Of a DNA stretch of 29,451 nucleotides, positions 15,601 to 27,893 are shown in pieces. Below the pieces are notes generated by a model. That model was not told where the DNA came from, searched no databases, and saw only the letters and a program-made list of their open reading frames with translations. Numbering within the stretch: the stretch's first letter is position 1; every line of letters starts with the position of its first letter. The DNA comes from Cyanobacteriota bacterium. Lineage in GTDB: Bacteria > Cyanobacteriota > Cyanobacteriia > Leptolyngbyales > Leptolyngbyaceae. Location of the stretch: contig JAIXVO010000459.1 of the NCBI GenBank assembly GCA_027482985.1, positions 1-29,451 of the forward strand, in the 5' to 3' direction. A program made the translations under genes and the position numbers.

Positions 15601-18600
15601 CTAAGTGGGTTGGTCAGGAGCGGGGCGATCGCCCGTTGCGGCCTTGCCATTGGCAGCAGGCGATCGCGCTGCCAGATATTCGTAGAACTGCCAGCGGTTG
15701 TTCACATCCGCCTGGGCTTCTGCCAGCAAATGTTTCGCCTCAGCCGGGTTGCTCTTGGTCAGCATCTTGAACCGATTTTCTTCGTACATCGACTGGCTCA
15801 CCGGACGCTTCGGCGATCCCGTATCGAGATGTAGGGGATTCTTGCCAGCCGCTTTCAGGGCGGGATTGTAGCGGTAGAGCAACCAGCGGCCACTGTCGAC
15901 GATCGCTTTTTGGTGGGTCATGGCAGTTTGCATGTTGATGCCGTGGGCGATGCAATGGCTGTAGGCCAGGATCAACGACGGGCCATCATAAGCTTCCGCC
16001 TCCATAAAGGCTTTGAGCGTGTGTTCATCCTTCGCCCCCATCGCCACACTCGCCACATAGACATTGCCATAGGTCATGGCAATCATGCCCAAATCCTTCT
16101 TCGGTGCGGGTTTGCCACCTGCGGCAAATTTTGCCACTGCCCCGCGTGGGGTTGCTTTCGAGGATTGTCCCCCCGTGTTGGAATACACTTCCGTATCCAT
16201 CACCAGAATGTTGACGTTCCGCCCGCTGGCAATCACATGATCCAGTCCGCCAAAGCCGATGTCGTAAGCCCAGCCATCCCCACCAATGATCCAGACACTT
16301 TTCTTGACTAAATAATCCGCTACGGCTTGCAGTTGTTTCGCTTCCGGTGAGTGGAGGTGTTGCAGCGCTTGTTTCAACGCCTGCCCCCGTTCGCGTTGCT
16401 CCCAAATATCCGCTTCCGATCGCTGCTCTGCCGTGAGAATGCCCGTGACCAGCGTATCCCCCAGTTCCCCACTCAGTTTTTGCAGCAATTCCGCCGCAAA
16501 CTGTGCCTGTTTATCGATCGAGATGCGGAAGCCCAGCCCAAATTCGGCGTTGTCTTCAAACAAACTATTCGACCAGGCTGGCCCCCGTCCCTCCGCGTTT
16601 TTCGCCCAGGGTGTGGTCGGCAAATTGCCCCCATAAATCGAAGAACAACCCGTCGCATTCGCCACCAACATGCGATCGCCAAACAACTGGCTGACCAACT
16701 TCAGGTACGGCGTTTCGCCACAACCACCGCACGCCCCCGAGAACTCAAACAGAGGTTCTTCCAGTTGTTGCTGGCGGATCAGGTGTAGTTTCAGATCGCG
16801 GCGATCGGGGTTAGGCAAACTCAGGAAAAAGTCCCAATTAGCCCGTTCCTGATCCCGCAGCGGCAATTGTGGCTCCATGTTGATCGCCTTTTTCGACGGC
16901 ATGGATTTGTTCTTCGCCGGACAAATGTCCACACAAATGCCACAGCCCGTACAATCCTCTGCCGCCACCTGGATCGTAAATTTCTCACCCGCAAAATCGT
17001 GATCCCGCGCATTCGCTGTTTTGAAGCTGGCAGGGGCATTCACCAGCGCTGCCGGGTCGTAAGCCTTGCCACGAATCACCGCATGGGGGCACATCAGCAC
17101 ACACTTGCCACACTGAATACAGACCTCCGGTTCCCAAACGGGAATTTCCTGGGCGATGTTGCGTTTTTCCCATTGGGTGGTGCCTGTGGGATAGGTGCCG
17201 TCGATGGGCAGGGCACTCACGGGTAAGTCGTCGCCCTGGGAAGCCATGATTTTGCCCAAGACTTCCCGCACAAAAGCAGGCGCAGTATCGGGGATGGGCG
17301 AGGTGGGTTTGGCGATCGCGCTAGTCACCGTCGCAGGCACCGCCACCGGATGCAGATTGACCAGCGTATTATCTACCGCTTGCAGATTCAGGCGGACAAT
17401 TTCTGCTCCTTTTTTGCCATAGGTCTTTTCAATCGAAGCTTTAATTTTCGCGATCGCCTCCTCCCTCGGCAACACGCCCGCCAGCGCAAAGAAACAGGTC
17501 TGCATCACGGTATTAATCCGCCCGCCCATGCCATTGTCTCGCGCCACCTGATTCGCATCGATCACAAACACTTTGATCTGGTTGCGAATGATCTGCTCCT
17601 GCACCTCAATCGGCATCTGATCCCAAACTTCTGCTTGGGGATAAGGACTATTCAGCAGCAAGACTGCGCCCGGAGCCGCTGCTGCTAGAACATCTAACCG
17701 TTCCAGGAAATTCCATTGGTGACAGCCGATGAAGTTGGCTTGTTGAATCAGATAGGTGGAGCGAATCGGGGCAGGGCCAAACCGGAGATGAGAAACCGTC
17801 GTCGAGCCGGACTTTTTCGAGTCGTAGACAAAATAGCCCTGAGCATAGTTGTCCGTTTCTTCGCCGATGATTTTGATCGAGTTTTTGTTCGCGCCCACCG
17901 TTCCATCGGCTCCCAAGCCGTAGAACATCGCCCGGACAACACTTTCCGGCTCCGTCGAAAAGCTGGGATCGTAATCCAGCGAAGTCTGAGAGACATCATC
18001 GTGAATACCGATCGTGAAGTGATTTTTCGGTTTGGGCTGCAACAGATGCTCAAACACAGCCTTGATCATAGCGGGGGTAAATTCCTTCGAGGACAACCCA
18101 TAGCGCCCACCGACCACCCGTGGCAATGACCCGTCCCAGGCTTCATTCAAGGCAGTCACCACATCTTGATACAGCGGCTCACCCCCTGCACCGGGTTCTT
18201 TGGAGCGATCGAGTACCGCGATCGCCTGTACCGTCTGCGGCAACGCAGCCACCAGTCGCTCTGCTGACCAGGGACGATAGAGCCGCACCTTCAGCACCCC
18301 CACTTTTTCACCCGCTGGGAGCAGGGCATCCACCGTTTCATGCACCGCTTCACAGCCCGATCCCATCAGGATGATCACCCGTTCGGCATCCGGTGCCCCG
18401 TGATACTCAAACAGTTGATACTGCCGCCCAGTCAGGGTTGCCAACTGATCCATTGCTTGCTGAATGATGTCGGGGCAAGCCTCGTAAAAGGGATTGACCG
18501 TTTCCCGCGCCTGGAAGTAGACATCTGGGTTTTGAGCTGTGCCGCGCAACACAGGACGATCAGGCGTGAGGGCGCGATCGCGATGAGCCAACACCCCTTC

Positions 18601-19200
18601 ATCCTGAATCAAAGCGCGATAGGCGGCAGTGTCCAGCAGTTCGATTTTCTGGACTTCGTGGGAAGTTCGGAAGCCATCAAAAAAGTGAATGAAGGGCAGG
18701 CGCGATCGCAACGTTGCAGCATGGGCAATCAAGGCAAAATCTTGCGCTTCCTGCACGGAGGCTGAACAGAGCAACACAAAGCCCGTCCCACGCACTGCCA
18801 TCACATCACTATGATCCCCAAAAATCGACAGTCCTTGCGCCGCCAGCGATCGCGCCGCCACATGAATTACGGCACTGGTGAGTTCCCCCGCAATTTTGTA
18901 GAGGTTGGGAATCATCAGCAGCAGTCCCTGCGAGGCGGTGAAAGTGGTCGTGAGAGATCCCGTTTGCAGTGCCCCGTGAACAGCTCCCGCCGCACCGCCC
19001 TCACTCTGCATTTCCACCACGCTGGGCAAGGTATTCCAGAGGTTTAAGCGACCTTCCGCAGCCCAAGCGTCCGCCCATTCCCCCATCGGTGAGGCGGGCG
19101 TAATGGGGTAAATCGCAATCACTTCACTCAAGGCATAGGCGACCCGAGCAACCGCCTCATTCGCATCCAACGTGGCACAGGTTTTACTAGTCATATCCAT
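15601..19200 (-). CDS. nifJ: Pyruvate:ferredoxin (flavodoxin) oxidoreductase
   Basis: This 1199-aa single-chain PFOR converts pyruvate and CoA to acetyl-CoA and CO2 with reduction of ferredoxin or flavodoxin. Order of domains: pyruvate-binding domain I (NEAVARVAYALSEVIAIYPITPASPMGEW), domain II and gamma-type domain, the [4Fe-4S] ferredoxin domain near residues 690-760 (CIQCGKCVLMCP and CTGCGICVDICP), and a C-terminal thiamine-diphosphate domain (ACGGCGETPY, ANATGCSSIYGG, GDGWAYDIGFGG, YSNTGGQSSK). I chose the ATG at 19200, preceded by AAGGA, because the family sequence begins at MTSKTCATLDANEA; the open frame extends 61 codons further without similarity. It is transcribed away from hoxE across a long intergenic region, which fits a fermentative H2-producing module. 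A role in nitrogen fixation is not indicated, since no nif genes are in view. Confidence 0.96.
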   Translation of the reverse strand: MDMTSKTCATLDANEAVARVAYALSEVIAIYPITPASPMGEWADAWAAEGRLNLWNTLPSVVEMQSEGGAAGAVHGALQTGSLTTTFTASQGLLLMIPNLYKIAGELTSAVIHVAARSLAAQGLSIFGDHSDVMAVRGTGFVLLCSASVQEAQDFALIAHAATLRSRLPFIHFFDGFRTSHEVQKIELLDTAAYRALIQDEGVLAHRDRALTPDRPVLRGTAQNPDVYFQARETVNPFYEACPDIIQQAMDQLATLTGRQYQLFEYHGAPDAERVIILMGSGCEAVHETVDALLPAGEKVGVLKVRLYRPWSAERLVAALPQTVQAIAVLDRSKEPGAGGEPLYQDVVTALNEAWDGSLPRVVGGRYGLSSKEFTPAMIKAVFEHLLQPKPKNHFTIGIHDDVSQTSLDYDPSFSTEPESVVRAMFYGLGADGTVGANKNSIKIIGEETDNYAQGYFVYDSKKSGSTTVSHLRFGPAPIRSTYLIQQANFIGCHQWNFLERLDVLAAAAPGAVLLLNSPYPQAEVWDQMPIEVQEQIIRNQIKVFVIDANQVARDNGMGGRINTVMQTCFFALAGVLPREEAIAKIKASIEKTYGKKGAEIVRLNLQAVDNTLVNLHPVAVPATVTSAIAKPTSPIPDTAPAFVREVLGKIMASQGDDLPVSALPIDGTYPTGTTQWEKRNIAQEIPVWEPEVCIQCGKCVLMCPHAVIRGKAYDPAALVNAPASFKTANARDHDFAGEKFTIQVAAEDCTGCGICVDICPAKNKSMPSKKAINMEPQLPLRDQERANWDFFLSLPNPDRRDLKLHLIRQQQLEEPLFEFSGACGGCGETPYLKLVSQLFGDRMLVANATGCSSIYGGNLPTTPWAKNAEGRGPAWSNSLFEDNAEFGLGFRISIDKQAQFAAELLQKLSGELGDTLVTGILTAEQRSEADIWEQRERGQALKQALQHLHSPEAKQLQAVADYLVKKSVWIIGGDGWAYDIGFGGLDHVIASGRNVNILVMDTEVYSNTGGQSSKATPRGAVAKFAAGGKPAPKKDLGMIAMTYGNVYVASVAMGAKDEHTLKAFMEAEAYDGPSLILAYSHCIAHGINMQTAMTHQKAIVDSGRWLLYRYNPALKAAGKNPLHLDTGSPKRPVSQSMYEENRFKMLTKSNPAEAKHLLAEAQADVNNRWQFYEYLAARSPAANGKAATGDRPAPDQPT

Positions 19201-19403
19201 GAATCCTTGCAATGGGAGTAGCCATTCATCCTGGCGATCACAGTCCAAGCACGATCTGAAGCTTGATCCTGACACCGCGATCGCACCTACAAAAAACTGA
19301 TTCCAACCAAACTCAAAACTTTTTGTGAGAAATTCGCAAAACGATGTCGATTTCACCTTCAGAGCGCTGAAACCAGCCACCAAAATCGGGATTCAAACAA
19401 TCT

Positions 19404-19852: not shown

Positions 19853-20094
19853 AGGGTAGATACGAAGACAGCGACACGATTCTGGTAGCGGTTTGCATCC
19901 CTGAATTAAATTGAAAATTAGGATTAAACGATCATATTTTTGGACAAAAACAACATTAGTTTTGTTTAATTGATTCTTTAGAAACTCCAATCTTCACAAC
20001 CTCAATCAGAATCACAAACTTGTATTCGCGATCGCGACAATTTCCATGGCTGACGCTGGTTTCATCGATTGCAAAAGGATTAGGGCTATACCGT

Positions 20095-20622
20095 ATGCAA
20101 GCTGTAACAAAGACGACTCAAGCCACACCGAAACCCGCCAAATCTGATCATCCCAGTGGCGATCGGCGCTTCAAAACCTTAGACATGACGATGAAGCGGC
20201 ATCAATACAAGCCCGATGCGTTGATTGAAGTGCTGCACAAGGCGCAAGAATCCTTTGGGTTTCTGGAAGAAGATGTGCTGACCTACATCGCCAGAGGGCT
20301 GAAATTGCCTCTCAGCAAAGTCTACGGGACTGCTACCTTTTATCATTTATTTTCCCTCAAGCCCAACGGCGCACACACCTGCGTGGTCTGCCTGGGCACC
20401 GCCTGCTATGTCAAAGGTAGCAATAAAGTCTCAGCAGCCCTGGAGGAAGAACTGGGCATCAAACTGGGCGAAACCACAGCGGATGGCAAAATTTCACTGA
20501 TGGCCGCTCGCTGCATTGGTGCCTGTGGCATTGCGCCAGCGGTGGTGTTTGATGGCACCGTGGCAGGCAAACAAGAGCCGGAAATGGCATTGGCAAAAGT
20601 CAAAGATTGGGAATTGGAGTAA
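20095..20622 (+). CDS. hoxE: Bidirectional [NiFe] hydrogenase diaphorase subunit HoxE
   Basis: This 175-aa thioredoxin-like [2Fe-2S] protein is homologous to NuoE and belongs to the diaphorase HoxEFU. It carries electrons between the NAD(P)H/ferredoxin side and the hydrogenase or a membrane/ferredoxin partner. The four cluster ligands are C99-x4-C104 (CLGTAC) and C140-x3-C144 (CIGAC). The three-helix N-terminal region (KPDALIEVLHKAQESFGFLEEDVLTYIARGL) and YGTATFYHLF are typical. I chose the ATG at 20095 (AAGGATTAGGG upstream) over a TTG 75 nt earlier, because the extension is not family-like. It is the first gene of the hox operon. Confidence 0.95.
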   Translation: MQAVTKTTQATPKPAKSDHPSGDRRFKTLDMTMKRHQYKPDALIEVLHKAQESFGFLEEDVLTYIARGLKLPLSKVYGTATFYHLFSLKPNGAHTCVVCLGTACYVKGSNKVSAALEEELGIKLGETTADGKISLMAARCIGACGIAPAVVFDGTVAGKQEPEMALAKVKDWELE

Positions 20623-20699
20623 TCAAGAACAGGAATTGCGATCGCTGCTAACCCGTCCGATACCCCTTACGCAAAAAGCGCTCTAATGCATATCAGATG

Positions 20700-20810
20700 C
20701 CACTTGCCCTCATCCCCCAACCCCTTCTCCCAGAACAGGAGCAGGGAAGCCAGAGTATCTTTCCCCTCGCCCAAAATGGGCGAGGGGAACACAAGGGGTG
20801 AGGGCGGTTT
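20700..20810. repeat. Palindromic intergenic repeat between hoxE and hoxF
   Basis: A perfect 13-bp stem (20761-20773 with 20777-20789, TTCCCCTCGCCCA and its complement, loop AAA) sits inside a larger imperfect inverted repeat that begins GCCCTCATCCCCCAACCCC and ends GGGGTGAGGGCGG. It resembles CCC-rich, MITE-like repeats scattered through cyanobacterial genomes. In the transcript it would fold between hoxE and hoxF. Confidence 0.8.
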
Positions 20811-20840
20811 AGCAATTTCAACTCAGAGGACACTGAGATT

Positions 20841-22478
20841 ATGGATTTAACCGAACTACTAGACGTGGGGGAAGCCCATCGAGCCGCCCAAAAAGCGACC
20901 CGTGTGCATTGTTGTACTTCGACCGGATGTCGTGCCGCCAGTGCAATGGAGGTGTTCAAAAACCTCAAAACTGCTGTGCAAGACGCAGGCTTGGAGGCCG
21001 AAGTGGAGGTGGTCGGAGTCGGGTGTATGGGCTTTTGTGGGCGAGGTCCTTTGGTGCAAATTGACCCGCAGCAAGCTCTGTACGAAGAGGTGAAGCCAGA
21101 AGAAGCCACCAGCATCATTGACACGTTGCAGGGCGGCACTACACCTGCTCTGAAAGGGGATTTGCAGCATCCGTTCTTTGCCCGTCAGGTCAAAATTGTG
21201 CGGCAACATAGCGGCAAAGTTGACCCCGAAAGTATTGAGGATTACATCTCGGTAGGCGGTTATCGATCGCTCTACAAAGCAATCTACGAGATGTCTCCAG
21301 GCGAAGTCGTGGACGAAATCATCGCCAGCGGCATTCGCGGTCGGGGCGGTGGGGGTTATCCCACGGGCTTGAAATGGGCAACCGTGGCGAAGATGCCCGG
21401 TGATCAGAAATACGTCATTTGCAATGGGGATGAAGGCGATCCGGGGGCATTTATGGATCGCAGTGTGTTGGAAAGTGATCCCCATCTGGTGTTAGAAGGA
21501 ATGGCGATCGCGGGTTATGCGATCGGGGCGAATCATGGTTTTATTTATGTCCGGGCTGAGTATCCGTTAGCCATTCAACGGTTACAAAAAGCGATTCAAC
21601 AGGCGAAGAAATACGGATTACTAGGGAGCCAAATTTTTGATTCGCCCTTTGATTTCAAAGTCGATATTCGGATTGGTGCGGGAGCGTTTGTTTGTGGCGA
21701 AGAAACTGCTTTGATTCAGTCGATTCAGGGTGGGCGCGGCAATCCGATTCCCCGTCCGCCTTATCCCGCACAATCGGGATTATGGCAATGCCCAACGTTA
21801 ATCAACAACGTGGAAACCCTGGCGAATATCAGCACCATTATTCGTGAAGGCGGTGCCTGGTATGCCAGCATCGGGACGGACAAGAGTAAGGGCACCAAAA
21901 TCTTTGCCTTGACGGGCAAAATTCGCAACAATGGGCTGATCGAAGTGCCGATGGGCATTACCTTACGCGAAATTGTGGAGGAAATGGGCGGCGGTGTGCC
22001 CGATGGCGAAGTGAAGGCAGTGCAAACGGGGGGACCTTCTGGGGGCTGCATTCCGGCATCGTTGCTGGATACACCCGTGGATTACGATTCACTGGTGGCG
22101 ATCGGCTCCATGATGGGATCAGGGGGGATGGTGGTGATGGATCAGGATACCAACATGGTGGAGGTCGCCCAATTTTACATGGAGTTTTGTCGGGGGGAAA
22201 CCTGCGGCAAGTGCGTGCCCTGCCGGACGGGCACGGTGCAGCTCTATGCTCTCCTGACGAAACTACTGAAACGACAGGCGACCCAAGCGGATTTAGCCAA
22301 GCTGGAAAGTCTGTGTCATATGGTGCAGGAAACCAGTTTATGCGGCTTAGGCATTAGTGCCCCCAACCCAATTTTGAGTACGCTGCGATATTTCAACGAG
22401 GAATATCAAGAACTCCTGCAACCACCCGCTTATCTGAATGGCAAAGTTGGTCATGGTCAAGTTACGGTTTCTCAGTGA
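20841..22478 (+). CDS. hoxF: Bidirectional hydrogenase diaphorase subunit HoxF (FMN/NAD-binding)
   Basis: This 545-aa homologue of NuoF with an N-terminal thioredoxin-like [2Fe-2S] domain binds NAD(P)H and FMN and splits hydride into electrons. Ligands in the N-terminal domain are C25-x4-C30 and C62-x3-C66, the same spacing as in HoxE. The nucleotide/FMN part has [49 protein letters not shown] and NNVETLANI. The C-terminal [4Fe-4S] motif is [10 protein letters not shown] with a distal Cys in SLCGLG. The ATG at 20841 begins the family-like MDLTELLDV. It is downstream of hoxE across a repeat-bearing gap of 218 nt. Confidence 0.97.
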
Positions 22479-22485
22479 GGTCATC

Positions 22486-22536
22486 GCGATCGCGTAACGC
22501 GCCGTCACCAGAATCATTGGTGCGTTACGCGATCGC
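22486..22536. repeat. HIP1-containing inverted repeat between hoxF and hoxU
   Basis: Two perfect complementary 15-bp arms, GCGATCGCGTAACGC (22486-22500) and GCGTTACGCGATCGC (22522-22536), flank a 21-nt loop. TAACACACCCTACA follows. This resembles a repeat common between cyanobacterial genes. It begins 8 nt after the hoxF stop and would form a strong mRNA hairpin. Confidence 0.88.
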
Positions 22537-22629
22537 TAACACACCCTACACAATCACAAAAACTTTCAAAATAGATGGAAAAAATCACTGCCAGATTAAT
22601 TTCTACATCGTGATAGGGGAAGGAGAATC

Positions 22630-23346
22630 ATGTCGGTCAAAACATTGAAAATTAATGGGGTTGACATTGCCATAGAGGAAGGTGCAACGGTATTGCAAGC
22701 CGCTCGGCAGGCGGGGGTGCCCATTCCGACATTGTGCCATCTCGATGGGGTGCATGATGTGGGAGCCTGTCGGTTGTGTTTGGTGGAAGTCAGCGGCACC
22801 CGCAAGTTGCTGCCTGCCTGTGTGACGGAAGTGGCGGAAGGGATGGAAGTGCAAACAAACACCCCGAAACTGCAAGAGTATCGCCGGATGACGGTTGAGT
22901 TGCTGTTTTCAGAAGGCAACCATGTTTGCTCCGTCTGTGTCGCGAATGGTAATTGTGAGTTGCAGGATGTGGCGATTCAAGTCGGCATGGATCACAGCCG
23001 CTTTACCTACCGCTTCCCCGATCGCGCCGTCGATATTTCCCATCCCCAATTCGGCATCGACCATAACCGCTGCATTCTGTGTACGCGCTGTGTGCGGGTG
23101 TGTGACGAGATTGAAGGGGCGCATGTGTGGGATGTGGCGCAACGGGGAGCCGCTTGTTACATCGTCTCTGGCTTAAATCAGCCCTGGGGCGAGGTGGATG
23201 CCTGTACGTCCTGCGGCAAGTGTGTGGATGCCTGCCCGACGGGGGCGATTTTCCGGAAGGGCAGTACAACCGGTGAGAAAGAACGCGATCGCGCCAAACT
23301 CGATTTTCTGGTCACGGCACGGGAGAAACACGAATGGACAAGATAA
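22630..23346 (+). CDS. hoxU: Bidirectional hydrogenase diaphorase subunit HoxU
   Basis: This 238-aa iron-sulfur subunit, homologous to the NuoG N-terminus, wires HoxF to HoxY. An N-terminal plant-type [2Fe-2S] fold has ligands C36, C47, C50 and C64. Next is the His-Cys3 [4Fe-4S] motif H98, C100, C103, C109. Two ferredoxin-type clusters follow: C148/C151/C154 with C202, and C192/C195/C198 with C158. All ligands are intact. A strong AAGGAG 5 nt before the ATG fixes the start. The last 13 nt overlap the start of hoxY in another frame. Confidence 0.97.
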   Translation: MSVKTLKINGVDIAIEEGATVLQAARQAGVPIPTLCHLDGVHDVGACRLCLVEVSGTRKLLPACVTEVAEGMEVQTNTPKLQEYRRMTVELLFSEGNHVCSVCVANGNCELQDVAIQVGMDHSRFTYRFPDRAVDISHPQFGIDHNRCILCTRCVRVCDEIEGAHVWDVAQRGAACYIVSGLNQPWGEVDACTSCGKCVDACPTGAIFRKGSTTGEKERDRAKLDFLVTAREKHEWTR

Positions 23347-23882
23347 AATTTGCAACGGTTTGGCTGGCGGGTTGCTCCGGTTGCCATATGTCTTTTTTAG
23401 ATTTGGACGAATGGCTGATTGAGTTAGCTCAGTTTGTGGAGGTGGTCTATAGCCCCGTGGGATGCGACTTGAAGCACTATCCCGACAATGTGGATGTGTG
23501 TCTGGTGGAAGGTGGCATCGCCAACGAGGATAACCTGGAGCTGATTCTACAAGTGCGCCGCCAAACGAAAATTCTGATTTCCTTTGGCGATTGTGCCGTG
23601 ACTGCGAATGTCCCCGCCATGCGAAATATGTTGGGGGGGGCGGAACCCGTGTTGAAACGCGCTTATCTGGAGTTGGGCGACACCTCGCCGCAATTGCCCT
23701 ACGCCCCAGGCATTGTGCCGGAATTGCTCGATCGCGTGTTGCCCGTGCATGAAGTGGTGCCCGTGGATATTTATATGCCGGGATGTCCGCCCCCCGCCGA
23801 TCGCATTCGCGCCACGATCGAACCGCTCTTACACGGAGAAATGCCCGCGATGGTTGGGCGCGACATGATCAAATTTGGTTAG
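23334..23882 (+). CDS. hoxY: Bidirectional [NiFe] hydrogenase small subunit HoxY
   Basis: This 182-aa small subunit carries the proximal [4Fe-4S] cluster next to the NiFe site. Ligands are C14 and C17 (AGCSGCH), C87 (FGDCA) and C151 (MPGCPPP). Like other HoxY proteins it lacks the Tat signal and the medial/distal cluster domain of uptake hydrogenases, as expected for a cytoplasmic enzyme. It overlaps hoxU by 13 nt. A run of eight G (23633-23640) occurs within the frame without disrupting it. Confidence 0.97.
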   Translation: MDKIKFATVWLAGCSGCHMSFLDLDEWLIELAQFVEVVYSPVGCDLKHYPDNVDVCLVEGGIANEDNLELILQVRRQTKILISFGDCAVTANVPAMRNMLGGAEPVLKRAYLELGDTSPQLPYAPGIVPELLDRVLPVHEVVPVDIYMPGCPPPADRIRATIEPLLHGEMPAMVGRDMIKFG

Positions 23883-23903
23883 TTAGCACTGGGAGTGTGT
23901 CGT

Positions 23904-25331
23904 ATGGCGCAAACAATTGTCATTGATCCCATCACCCGCATTGAGGGACACGCCAAGATTTCCGTTTATCTCAATGATGCGGGCACCGTCGATGAGGCGC
24001 GATTTCATGTTGTGGAATATCGCGGCTTTGAGAAATTCTGTGAAGGTCGCCCGTTTACCGAAATGGCCGGGATTACCGCGCGGATTTGCGGCATCTGTCC
24101 CGTCAGTCACCTGTTGGCAGCAGCGAAGACCGGCGACAAAATCCTGGCCGTCAAAATCCCCCCTGCCGCCGCCAAACTGCGACGGCTAATGAATTTAGGG
24201 CAGATTACCCAATCTCATGCCCTGTCCTTCTTCCACCTCAGCAGTCCCGATTTTCTCCTGGGTTGGGATAGCGATCCCGCCAAACGCAATGTCTTTGGCT
24301 TAATCGAATCTGATCCTGATTTAGCCCGTGCTGGCATTCGGTTGCGACAATTTGGGCAAACCGTGATCGAACTCCTGGGTGCCCGCAAAATTCATGCCGC
24401 CTGGACAGTTCCCGGTGGCGTCCGATCGCCCCTCTCCGAAGAAGGTCGCCAGTGGATTCGCGATCGCCTGCCGGAATCCTTTGCCACCACCCAACTGGCG
24501 CTCGACTTGTTCAAACGCCTGATCGATACCCAACTTCAGGCCGAAGTGAATGTGTTTGGGGCGTTCCCGTCTCTCTTCATGGGCTTAGTCGGCAAAGATG
24601 GCGCATGGGAACATTACGATGGACATCTCCGGTTTAAGGACAGTCAGGGCAACATCATCGCCGACCATTTAAGTGAGGATGATTACGCCGATTTTCTAGC
24701 AGAAGCCGTCGAACCCTGGTCTTATCTCAAATTTCCTTACTACAAACCGATGGGCTACCCCGCTGGCATTTACCGGGTGGGACCTTTAGCCCGACTAAAT
24801 GTCTGCGATCGCATCGGCACCCCCGCCGCCGATCGCGAACTCCAGGAATTTCGCGATCGCTCCGGCGGCATGGCAACCTCATCCTTTCTGTATCACTACG
24901 CTCGACTCATCGAAATTCTCGCCTGCCTGGAACATATCCAACAGTTGATCGATGATCCAGACATTGTGAGCGATCGCGTCCGGGCGATCGCTGGAGTCAA
25001 CTCGCTAGAAGGTATTGGCGTGAGTGAAGCCCCGCGCGGGACTTTATTTCACCACTACAAAGTAGATGAAAACGGACTCATTCAAAAAGTCAACTTGATT
25101 ATTGCCACCGGACACAATAATCTCGCCATGAATCAAACCATTACGCAAATCGCGAAGGAGTACGTCAAAGGTACCGAAATCGCCGAAGGCATGCTCAACC
25201 GCGTCGAAGCTGGCATCCGCTGTTACGATCCCTGCCTCTCCTGCTCCACCCACGCCGCCGGACAAATGCCTTTACGCATCGAAATCGTGGCAGCAGATGG
25301 AACAGTAATGAGGGAGATCCGGAGGGATTAG
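23904..25331 (+). CDS. hoxH: Bidirectional [NiFe] hydrogenase large subunit HoxH
   Basis: This 475-aa catalytic subunit houses the NiFe(CN)2CO centre where protons and H2 interconvert. The L1 motif is R-I-C62-G-I-C65 and the C-terminal motif is D-P-C444-L-S-C447-S-T-H450. After His450 comes a 25-residue extension starting AAGQ, the piece removed by the maturation protease (hoxW lies downstream). I use the ATG at 23904 with GGGAG about 9 nt upstream; a GTG at 23895 would add only three residues. It starts 21 nt after hoxY. Confidence 0.97.
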
Positions 25332-25347
25332 GGGGAGGAAGCTTCTT

Positions 25348-25426
25348 CGTAGGTTGGGTTGAACCCCGTGAAACCCAACAGCGGTGTCTGTTCCGTTGGG
25401 TTACGCTAACGCTAACCCAACCTACG
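25348..25426. repeat. GTAGGTTGGGTT-type inverted repeat between hoxH and the insert module
   Basis: Outer arms CGTAGGTTGGGTT (25348-25360) and AACCCAACCTACG (25414-25426) are exact complements. A nested GAAACCCAAC / GTTGGGTTAC pair lies inside. Elements of this form are widespread in cyanobacterial genomes. It starts 16 nt after the hoxH stop and fills most of the 122-nt gap before the regulatory trio. Confidence 0.88.
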
Positions 25427-25453
25427 CAAACGGTTCTTGCTCAGGTACTCGCT

Positions 25454-25720
25454 ATGGCCAAAGAACATTTGATTCTCTGTATGGGTTCCGCCTGCCACCA
25501 ATTGGGGGTGTATGAGGTGTTGCCGAAACTCCAGGCGTTGATGCGAGACTATCAACTGGAAGATCAGGTGGTGTTGAAGGGGTCGTTTTGTTTGGAAACG
25601 TGTAGCGATGGGATTACGATGAAGTTTCGCGATCGCCTGTTTCTCAATATCAATCCTCAGAATATTGAAGCCAAGTTTGTGGAAGAAATTTTGCCAGCAG
25701 TACAAGCTGAGAGAGTGTAG
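25454..25720 (+). CDS. Small thioredoxin-like [2Fe-2S] protein in the hox operon
   Basis: This 88-aa protein consists only of the thioredoxin-like [2Fe-2S] domain of the NuoE/HoxE C-terminal type. Four cysteines are spaced exactly as in HoxE and HoxF: C9-x4-C14 (CMGSAC) and C46-x3-C50 (CLETC). It lacks the helical N-terminal part of HoxE, so it is not simply a second HoxE. It could be an extra electron carrier for the diaphorase or a redox input for the PAS/phosphatase pair behind it; the latter is inference. The next ATG follows its stop after 3 nt. The hoxH stop is 122 nt upstream, across an inverted repeat. Confidence 0.88.
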   Translation: MAKEHLILCMGSACHQLGVYEVLPKLQALMRDYQLEDQVVLKGSFCLETCSDGITMKFRDRLFLNINPQNIEAKFVEEILPAVQAERV

Positions 25721-25723
25721 CCG

Positions 25724-26236
25724 ATGAGCCTGACCGAGGATCACAATCATCTCTGGAAACTGCTGTGGGAGTATGATCCGAATGGCTTAATTGCCGTCGA
25801 TTCCGATTTGTATGTGAGATTGGTGAATCCGGCGTTTTGTCGGATGTTTCGCACCAGCGCTGAGGATGTGATTGGGCAACCCGCGAGTGTGATTTTGGAT
25901 GATGTGGAAGACTTTAAGAAAGTTTGGCAGACTAATTCAGTCATTCGAGGACAATTCAAGGAATATCCTCAATATCAGCTTTATGTGAATCAAGTCATTT
26001 TCGCGATCGAGGATGAAGGCATCATTGCTTCCATCATGGTTGACTTGAGTCACGACTTAGATCGGAAACGGGAATTGGAGAAACTGAAGCGGGAAACAGT
26101 CAAGAAGGTGAATGAAGTCGTTGACCATCAAATGAAAGTAGTCCAGGAGATTGCTGGATTGTTGGGTGAAACGACTGCCGAAACCAAAGTGAGCTTGCTG
26201 AAAATTATCCACATGATTGAACATGACGTGATCTAA
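25724..26236 (+). CDS. PAS-domain protein with conserved helical tail, hox operon
   Basis: This 170-aa cytoplasmic protein has one PAS domain (about 10-118; LIAVDSDLYVRLVNPAFCRMF, then DVIGQPASVILDD). A charged coiled coil follows (about 118-150), and the protein ends with an EIAGLLGETTAETKVSLLKI segment. There is no HATPase, GGDEF or HTH, so it must act by binding a partner. The tail looks like the one I recall in PAS proteins beside clostridial [FeFe]-hydrogenase genes, but this was not checked. Its stop and the phosphatase start overlap by one base (TAATG), pointing to equimolar production and probably a PAS-controlled phosphatase. The ligand or cofactor is unknown. Confidence 0.85.
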   Translation: MSLTEDHNHLWKLLWEYDPNGLIAVDSDLYVRLVNPAFCRMFRTSAEDVIGQPASVILDDVEDFKKVWQTNSVIRGQFKEYPQYQLYVNQVIFAIEDEGIIASIMVDLSHDLDRKRELEKLKRETVKKVNEVVDHQMKVVQEIAGLLGETTAETKVSLLKIIHMIEHDVI

Positions 26237-27423
26237 TGAAACCGTTATATTGTCCCATCACCGTTGATAATTTTTTGGATGTGTATGCCGCCAGCCTCAA
26301 CAAGAAGGGGGAGGAACTGTGTGGCGACAAAATTAAATACCGCCGCACAGATCACAAACTCACGATCGTGTTATCCGATGGGTTGGGCAGCGGGGTGAAA
26401 GCGAACATCCTGGCCACCCTGACCACTGAAATTTTGCTCACCATGCTGGATGCGGATGTGCCGTTGGAAGAAGTGATCAAAACGGTGATCGCCACCCTGC
26501 CCATGTGCAAAGTTCGCAAGATTGCCTATTCCACCTTTACGATTATTCAGGTCAATGCCGAAACTAATCACTTCACAGTGACCAATTTTGATAATCCTGC
26601 CTGTTTCTATTTGCGCGATGGCAAGATTGCCCCCCTCACCACCCGGATTGAAAACATTCTAGATCGCCAGATTTCGATCTCTGAAGGGTACCTCCAGCGG
26701 GGCGACTTTTTGGGGGCGGTCAGCGATGGCGTATTGTATGCCGGAATGGGCATCACGTTGAATTTTGGTTGGGGCTGGGAGCAGATTTCCCAATATATCG
26801 AACAGGTTTTTACGCACAAAGCTCACACCGCGCGATCGATTATTCAGGAAGTGATTCAAAAAACCCACTCGCTTTATCAAGGGGAAGTCGGGGATGATGC
26901 AACAGTGGTGGGAATTTATATCCGTAAACGCAAACCTTTGATGATTTTTACGGGTCCACCTTTGAATCAAGATCAGGATGTTGAATATGTCGAGCGACTA
27001 CTCGACTTCAAAGGCAAAAAGATCGTGTGTGGTGGTACGACGGGCAACATCGTCGCGAACTACTTGAATGAAGCGATCGAAACTGATCTTTCTACACTCC
27101 GCAAAGATGTCCCCCCGATTGGCATGTTGAGTTACGTCAATCTGCTCACGGAAGGCATTTTGACCATTTCCAAAGCGACCGAATATCTCAAGAATTGCGA
27201 CTGTGATTTGTCACATTTACGCTTCGATAATAATGGCGCTTACCTGCTGAGTAAAGAGATTTTGCAAGCTGATTCAATTCTCTTTTTAGTCGGTCAAAGC
27301 ATCAACGAATTCTATCAAAATCCACTACTCCCAAAAAATATTTCGATTCGTCGCAACCTCATTGAAGACTTAGTACAGTTTCTTCGCAGCAAACAGAAAG
27401 AAGTCGTCATTGAATATTGCTAA
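26236..27423 (+). CDS. SpoIIE/PP2C-family serine phosphatase with extra C-terminal domain
   Basis: This is a 395-aa soluble protein. Residues about 1-230 form a PP2C/SpoIIE-type phosphatase core with metal-binding aspartates: D48 in LSDGLGSG, D164 in AVSDGV and D220/D221 in VGDDATV. Such enzymes dephosphorylate Ser/Thr, often on STAS-type regulators. Residues about 232-395 form a separate domain (PLMIFTGPPLNQDQD, KKIVCGGTTGNI, ADSILFLVGQSINEF) that I do not recognise. Its Gly-rich CGGTTGN turn could bind a nucleotide or cofactor. No anti-sigma factor, STAS protein or Ser/Thr kinase is in view, so the substrate is open; HoxEFUYH itself or a distant regulator are candidates. It is coupled by TAATG both to the PAS gene upstream and to hoxW downstream. 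Confidence 0.88.
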   Translation: MKPLYCPITVDNFLDVYAASLNKKGEELCGDKIKYRRTDHKLTIVLSDGLGSGVKANILATLTTEILLTMLDADVPLEEVIKTVIATLPMCKVRKIAYSTFTIIQVNAETNHFTVTNFDNPACFYLRDGKIAPLTTRIENILDRQISISEGYLQRGDFLGAVSDGVLYAGMGITLNFGWGWEQISQYIEQVFTHKAHTARSIIQEVIQKTHSLYQGEVGDDATVVGIYIRKRKPLMIFTGPPLNQDQDVEYVERLLDFKGKKIVCGGTTGNIVANYLNEAIETDLSTLRKDVPPIGMLSYVNLLTEGILTISKATEYLKNCDCDLSHLRFDNNGAYLLSKEILQADSILFLVGQSINEFYQNPLLPKNISIRRNLIEDLVQFLRSKQKEVVIEYC

Positions 27424-27893
27424 TGACAGTAGATCTCGTGATTGGTTATGGCAACACCCTCCGGAGTGACGATGGTGCCGGACAGATTGTCGCGAATCTG
27501 ATTGCGGATTGGGCGTTAGAGACTGTGCGATCGCTCGCAGTGCATCAACTCACCCCCGAACTCGCAGCCGAAATCGCCAGCTCGCAACGGGTCATCTTTG
27601 TCGATGTGTATGTTGCCCCTGAGCAACCCGACCTTCAACTGATTGAACTGACTCCCATGCCGGAACTCCCGGCTGGCTTAGGACATACTGCCGATCCGCG
27701 ATCGCTCCTCACCCTGGCACAACAGCTTTATGGAGCCACGCCTCGCAGTTGGTGGGTGTTGATTCCAGCCCTGAATTTTGAGTTTGGCGAAGAGTTATCC
27801 CCCGTCACCCAGCAAGGTATCGAGCAGGCGATCGCCCAAATTCAGTCCTTACTCATGGCTGCATCATCTCCCAACCCTGAGCCTACAATGTAG
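27423..27893 (+). CDS. hoxW: HoxH maturation protease (peptidase family M52)
   Basis: This 156-aa endopeptidase removes the C-terminal extension of HoxH once nickel is inserted. GYGNTLRSDDGAG at the N-terminus, with D17 as likely nickel ligand, D61 in VIFVDV and H88 in GLGHTADP, is the hydrogenase-protease pattern. I prefer the ATG at 27423, which overlaps the phosphatase stop (TAATG), over a TTG two codons earlier. Its position behind the regulatory trio ties that trio to the hydrogenase operon. No hyp genes are in the window. Confidence 0.93.
   Translation: MTVDLVIGYGNTLRSDDGAGQIVANLIADWALETVRSLAVHQLTPELAAEIASSQRVIFVDVYVAPEQPDLQLIELTPMPELPAGLGHTADPRSLLTLAQQLYGATPRSWWVLIPALNFEFGEELSPVTQQGIEQAIAQIQSLLMAASSPNPEPTM

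Follow-up and report, generated by a model that had tools for sequence, protein, structure and literature searches.

A thioredoxin-like, PAS and SpoIIE-type phosphatase gene trio in the cyanobacterial hox operon resembles the signalling part of group C3 sensory hydrogenase clusters

We analyzed a stretch of 29,451 nucleotides (the window) from an assembly of a member of the Leptolyngbyaceae (838 contigs, 5.2 Mb, 84% complete). Pfam and NCBIfam searches identified hoxEFUYH and hoxW, and reading of the open reading frames placed three small ORFs, here called TRX, PAS and SPO, between hoxH and hoxW, downstream of hoxE-F-U-Y-H (20020-25331; Table 1). The TTG start listed for hoxE is perhaps too far upstream, and hoxW has two start candidates, TTG 27417 and ATG 27423. 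ORFs and domain searches confirmed the first-pass annotation, which had described a [2Fe-2S] thioredoxin-like protein, a PAS protein without output domain and a SpoIIE/PP2C phosphatase with an extra domain at this position. The spacing it reported was also found on the sequence, with 3 nt between the TRX stop and the PAS ATG and TAATG overlaps at both the PAS-SPO and the SPO-hoxW junctions, the last leading into hoxW. The assembly contains a single SPO, and the named close homologues are all cyanobacterial (Elainella, Pantanalinema, Leptolyngbya); the PAS protein also occurs in Cyanothece sp. PCC 7425. The identical gene order recurs in many other genomes and hence is not due to chance. Two further features of the region lie outside the module. 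The pyruvate:ferredoxin/flavodoxin oxidoreductase gene, divergent from hoxE, is a neighbour, and the 122-nt gap between hoxH and TRX contains a hairpin repeat of ~80 bp (RNA fold -50.9 kcal/mol, z -3.49) with 44 matches in its own genome including itself, some of them short, which looks like a genome-wide REP/MITE-like element.

Table 1. Features of the hox locus in the window, with coordinates, strand and basis of assignment
Feature	Coordinates	Strand	Basis
Pyruvate:ferredoxin/flavodoxin oxidoreductase	15601..19383	-	Pfam POR_N 1e-84, POR, PFOR_II
hoxE	20020..20622	+	NCBIfam PRK07571 HoxE, 275.7 bits vs cut-off 224
hoxF	20841..22478	+	Pfam Complex1_51K, NADH_4Fe-4S, 2Fe-2S_thioredx
hoxU	22630..23346	+	NCBIfam PRK07569 HoxU, 429 bits vs cut-off 333
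hoxY	23334..23882	+	Pfam Oxidored_q6 and position
hoxH, [NiFe] large subunit	23895..25331	+	Pfam NiFeSe_Hases and position
hoxH-TRX gap with hairpin repeat	25332..25453	+	Genome matches, RNA fold
TRX, 88 aa, thioredoxin-like, predicted [2Fe-2S]	25454..25720	+	Best PDB match 7p5h; four Cys
PAS protein, 170 aa	25724..26236	+	Pfam PAS; alignment with HydS C-termini
PAS-protein C-terminal helix stretch, residues 123-155	26090..26188	+	Alignment with HydS
SPO, SpoIIE/PP2C-type phosphatase, 395 aa	26236..27423	+	Pfam PF07228
SPO C-terminal alpha/beta domain, residues 229-395	26920..27420	+	Structure model of that part alone
hoxW, hydrogenase maturation protease	27423..27893	+	TIGR00072 3.7e-18; ATG overlaps SPO stop

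To follow the three proteins we used 388 genomes of the window's class from 160 genera, searched with SPO (E<=1e-30) and HoxH (E<=1e-60). The 26 genomes with SPO in this sample, together with three from a sample of the phylum, make up the 29 SPO genomes considered below. TRX was found in all 29 (27 aligned copies and two located separately). It had no Pfam match at 0.01, PF01257 included, and matched NuoE-type families weakly (E 0.006, far below the cut-off). Its best PDB sequence match was the C-terminal part of the Fe-hydrogenase alpha subunit 7p5h (4e-6), presumably Thermotoga HydA. Cysteines 9, 14, 46 and 50 follow the pattern CX4C...CX3C and are conserved in 27/27 aligned copies, suggesting an electron-transfer input. 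The PAS protein, likewise present in 29/29 SPO genomes in open frames of 170-230 aa, scored E<1e-3 against four Pfam PAS families and passed the cut-offs of three. SPO matched PF07228 over residues 39-227 (3.5e-16); its fold and its metal-binding (catalytic) aspartates, which are conserved in 29/29 genomes, place it among the SpoIIE/PP2C phosphatases. It is 31-43% identical to 26 non-cyanobacterial rows of the alignment, C-terminal domain included. This domain had no Pfam match and, modelled alone, reached a pLDDT of 92 with weak fold matches. Across the SPO family, it (26920-27420 in the window) has an alpha/beta fold and conserved GGTTGNI and TEG motifs.

SPO was present in 26 genomes from 17 genera of the 388-genome sample and HoxH in 127 genomes from 72 genera. 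HoxH accompanied SPO in 26/26 cases, including genomes in which the genes are unlinked, which supports the earlier proposal of a redox/PAS/phosphatase module tied to hydrogenase genes. The hypergeometric values of this association, 4e-14 when genomes are counted and 4e-7 when genera are counted, carry no correction for descent, and the co-occurrence figure is inflated by linked genomes (20/29). The first-pass annotation had named close relatives with hox, without the trio and with unchanged hydrogenase behaviour as a finding that would speak against its idea. Many relatives with hox but without SPO do exist, but no SPO genome of this sample lacked hox. Since 101 of the 127 hox genomes have no SPO, Hox works without it. 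None of the 37 SPO-less hox genomes searched for the PAS protein contained it (E<=1e-15). In the genomes tested, the parts of the trio occur either all together or not at all, and never without hox. Because of this co-occurrence and all-or-none presence, the trio is an optional yet faithful partner of Hox.

The order hoxH-TRX-PAS-SPO is contiguous in 19 of the 29 SPO genomes, and in G474 an adhE-like gene is inserted into an otherwise linked arrangement. The whole TRX-PAS-SPO set lies distant from hoxH in five genomes, on another contig in four and 730 kb away in G555, and the parts are dispersed in four genomes of one family; TRX-PAS pairs apart from hoxH occur in G109 and G119. Nine genomes thus retain the set although some or all of it has separated from hoxH. 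SPO is followed by hoxW in 14/20 linked loci, the window included, and in trio-less controls hoxW comes right after hoxH, or with one ORF between, in 7/11 loci. Presence of the trio changes at least 6 times on the HoxH tree. Distance correlations, all of which are raised by common descent, were 0.87 for SPO-HoxH, 0.88 for SPO-HoxF and 0.84 for HoxH-HoxF, and lower for TRX (0.61-0.68).

Around the 37 loci of trio genomes we found no kinase or phosphoprotein gene conserved beside the module. HATPase_c_2 had 19 matches in the window's own genome, 6 of them above the cut-off and none on the window's contig. Pyruvate:ferredoxin oxidoreductase genes are near 8/37 of these loci vs 2/11 controls and adhE near 2/37 vs 0/11, which hints weakly at a fermentation regulon. 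Relatives of the window's oxidoreductase lie near hox in L034, L035, L076, L077, L079, L080, L082 and L083. According to Pfam, an AdhE-like aldehyde/alcohol dehydrogenase adjoins hoxH in two cyanobacteria (L080:9618-12434 and L093:6923-9595), and a relative also adjoins HydS-SPO in L048. Other genes assigned by Pfam within hox clusters are one for a prismane/hybrid-cluster protein, which separates hoxF from hoxU (L034:3917-5566, with an equal-length gene at the same place in L035), and a type ISP restriction-modification gene between hoxY and hoxH that splits the hox genes (L099:6344-9580).

Outside the window's class, we aligned SPO with distant homologues, scanned a genome collection and kept the best 80 of at least 580 confirmed relatives, mostly from Bacillota with single loci from Planctomycetota and Calditrichota. 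Together with nine loci from another class of the window's phylum (L042-L050), these form a set of 89. In all 89 (the best 80 of at least 580 plus the nine) a HydS-like ORF immediately precedes SPO; by Pfam, 85 of the loci have the [FeFe] H-domain (PF02906) and all 89 the Fe-S linker (PF04060). The four HydS-like ORFs without H-domain are short (242-288 aa), and three of them start at the contig start. A script detected TRX upstream in 56 of the best 80 of at least 580 relatives. HoxH or HoxY was found near SPO in none of these best 80 loci. In a quick, unrooted tree, in which closer outside relatives may be unsampled, the cyanobacterial SPO sequences form a single clade apart from the sampled Firmicutes, leaving a transfer from Firmicutes, as envisaged earlier, unsupported.

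The cyanobacterial PAS protein aligns to the PAS domain and C-terminal helix of HydS, and the H-domain and Fe-S linker are absent. The alignment comprised 14 of the 29 cyanobacterial copies (the window's included), 3 other sequences of the same phylum and 14 further sequences. Membership in this HydS-type family is also indicated by tblastn, which reached HydS of R. albus with the PAS protein as query (3e-16). A search with the N-terminal part of HydS detected an [FeFe] H-domain in 0/29 cyanobacterial SPO genomes, the window's included, and found HydS in 4/4 control genomes known to carry it (E 5e-69 or better). In 12/29 genomes the query gave weak matches (E 1e-5 to 1e-3), all inside its residues 7-141; 11 are confined to its ferredoxin part (residues 8-85), whereas the one in G601 spans residues 7-141 at 27% identity. 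The cluster thus has the same SpoIIE-type phosphatase family as group C3 and a PAS protein without [FeFe] H-domain. As this domain defines the group C3 sensory hydrogenases, the trio does not belong to them.

Judged by sequence, TRX, PAS and SPO are homologous to TRX-HydS-SPO, in the same order. The group C3 cluster of R. albus 7 likewise has TRX, a PAS-bearing protein and a SpoIIE phosphatase in this order, and the PAS C-terminal helix and the extra SPO domain are common to both systems. Of the earlier suggestion that similar trios stand beside clostridial [FeFe] hydrogenases, the kinship held, but the gene in the middle of the clostridial set encodes HydS, a PAS-bearing sensory [FeFe] hydrogenase of group C3. 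The cyanobacterial middle gene differs from HydS in lacking the H-domain, the ferredoxin part and the Fe-S linker, and the partner enzyme, unlike that of the group C3 module, is the [NiFe] hydrogenase Hox. The HydS cluster of R. albus adjoins a hydrogenase and adhE, as the trio adjoins a hydrogenase; the order in the R. albus 7 plasmid record is adhE, a phosphotransferase, two (2Fe-2S) proteins, an [Fe-Fe] hydrogenase, the SpoIIE phosphatase and a 4Fe-4S dicluster protein. None of the 37 trio-genome loci contains a relative of the phosphotransferase gene. HydDB describes group C3 as putatively phosphatase-linked and lists its role as undetermined (PMC5037454), the R. albus HydS cluster ranked with the genes whose regulation was strongest in co-culture, and a phosphatase output was proposed for it (PMC6776011), and signal transduction of sensory hydrogenases of this kind is called unknown (PMC11376134).

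The hfsABCD operon of Thermoanaerobacterium, compared here by its published description, also combines PAS and phosphatase genes with a hydrogenase. Here hfsB is HydS-like with PAS, hfsC encodes a serine phosphatase homologue and hfsD is HydA2-like (PMC5707799, PMC11837493). HfsB has the H-domain, unlike the cyanobacterial PAS protein. By its position hfsA may be the counterpart of TRX; HfsA is described as having no good alignment to known proteins (PMC11837493). Deletion of hfsA or hfsB increased ethanol ~1.8-fold with higher adhE expression, deletion of hfsC or hfsD gave no ethanol rise, and hfsC and hfsD were needed for the effect, from which the authors infer a regulatory link (PMC5707799). 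The genetics show a regulatory role of the operon in ethanol fermentation (PMC5707799, PMC11837493). In T. thermosaccharolyticum lacking hfsABCD, overexpression of hfsD alone also led to high ethanol (PMC11837493). Hence, the ethanol output does not always depend on the phosphatase, and it is also plausible that the partner hydrogenase itself is what the module controls.

SPO shares its catalytic fold with the partner-switching PP2C phosphatases SpoIIE, RsbU and RsbP. It differs from them in that the PAS domain is on a separate protein, an extra C-terminal alpha/beta domain is present and no linked kinase was seen. In RsbP, a PAS domain provides the input to PP2C. Hydrogenase-linked PAS signalling exists in Ralstonia, where the regulatory [NiFe] hydrogenase HoxBC acts with HoxJ. 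The output of that system, unlike the trio, is a histidine kinase and a response regulator, without a SpoIIE phosphatase. HoxJ is mentioned in PMC5707799 and PMC8163306.

From this comparison, we consider it an evenly balanced proposition that the trio represents the phosphatase signalling module of the group C3/HydS/hfs type, devoid of the H2-sensing [FeFe] domain and now a partner of the cyanobacterial [NiFe] hydrogenase Hox. By analogy, the trio probably does what the signalling half does in a group C3 sensory hydrogenase, and PAS probably gates SPO in cyanobacteria. The PAS protein would bind SPO via the helix common to HydS and set its activity. As the H-cluster, which would provide the input in HydS, is missing, the input must differ; it could be the redox state carried by the predicted [2Fe-2S] cluster of TRX, perhaps derived from the Fe-S chain of HoxEFU. 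TRX is the best candidate for an input link, perhaps to Hox. SPO would then dephosphorylate a protein that an unlinked kinase phosphorylates on Ser/Thr, and the output may tune fermentative gene expression, including hox and pyruvate metabolism, rather than or besides Hox activity. In its full form, this would mean that a switch once built on a sensory [FeFe] hydrogenase has shed the hydrogenase domain and now takes its signal from the [NiFe] hydrogenase Hox by way of TRX, with Hox as the sensor of a Ser/Thr phosphatase pathway governing cyanobacterial fermentation and H2, a possibility that we put forward tentatively.

The trio could instead act on Hox itself, in line with the proposal of the first-pass annotation, with SPO dephosphorylating a Hox subunit or HoxW and thereby switching the enzyme. 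The tight operon with hoxH and hoxW and the co-occurrence with hox even in unlinked genomes point in this direction, as do, in Thermoanaerobacterium, the partner hydrogenase gene hfsD as the key to the phenotype and the increased benzyl-viologen hydrogenase activity upon hfsB deletion (PMC5707799, PMC11837493). However, adhE transcription was altered in the hfs mutants, and the homologous modules adjoin different or no hydrogenases: within 6.5 kb of SPO, the best 80 of at least 580 loci have HydA-like genes in 30 cases, HydABC/NuoEF-like genes in 19 and neither in 31. A shared substrate is therefore unlikely to be a Hox subunit, and we regard Hox as the target as unlikely.

A sensing role of Hox would be dispensable if PAS bound its own ligand or cofactor (flavin, haem or a metabolite) and the trio merely shared the niche of Hox. 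The PAS domain is present while the Fe-S linker and H-domain are absent, and the TRX-PAS pairs distant from hoxH in G109 and G119 fit this explanation, but the four TRX cysteines retained in all 27 aligned copies suggest an electron-transfer input and hox accompanies SPO in every one of the 26 genomes; we find it rather unlikely. That the trio is a relic without present function, retained through its operon position, would agree with the missing H-domain and with the majority of hox genomes that have no module. It is very improbable given the conserved catalytic aspartates (29/29) and TRX cysteines (27/27) and the set kept in nine genomes partly or wholly detached from hoxH.

Among the papers listed in a literature search, which covered sources other than subscription journals and supplements, none was seen to describe the trio in a hox operon. 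The word 'phosphatase' occurs 0 times in the accessible text of a 2016 survey of hox organisation (PMC5186783), and 'SpoIIE' and 'PP2C' occur 0 times in that of a 2026 review, where the hox regulators named, CyAbrB1, CyAbrB2 and RpaA, all act on DNA (PMC13421787). With a Ser/Thr phosphatase arm encoded in the hox operon, regulation would gain a layer beyond these DNA-acting regulators. The missing H-domain also sets the signalling half of the group C3 puzzle apart from the other half, so that it could be studied without the O2-labile H-cluster and in air-growing organisms, and communication between PAS, TRX and the SpoIIE phosphatase becomes testable. If Hox indeed serves as sensor via TRX, a metabolic enzyme would at the same time provide the input to Ser/Thr phosphatase signalling.
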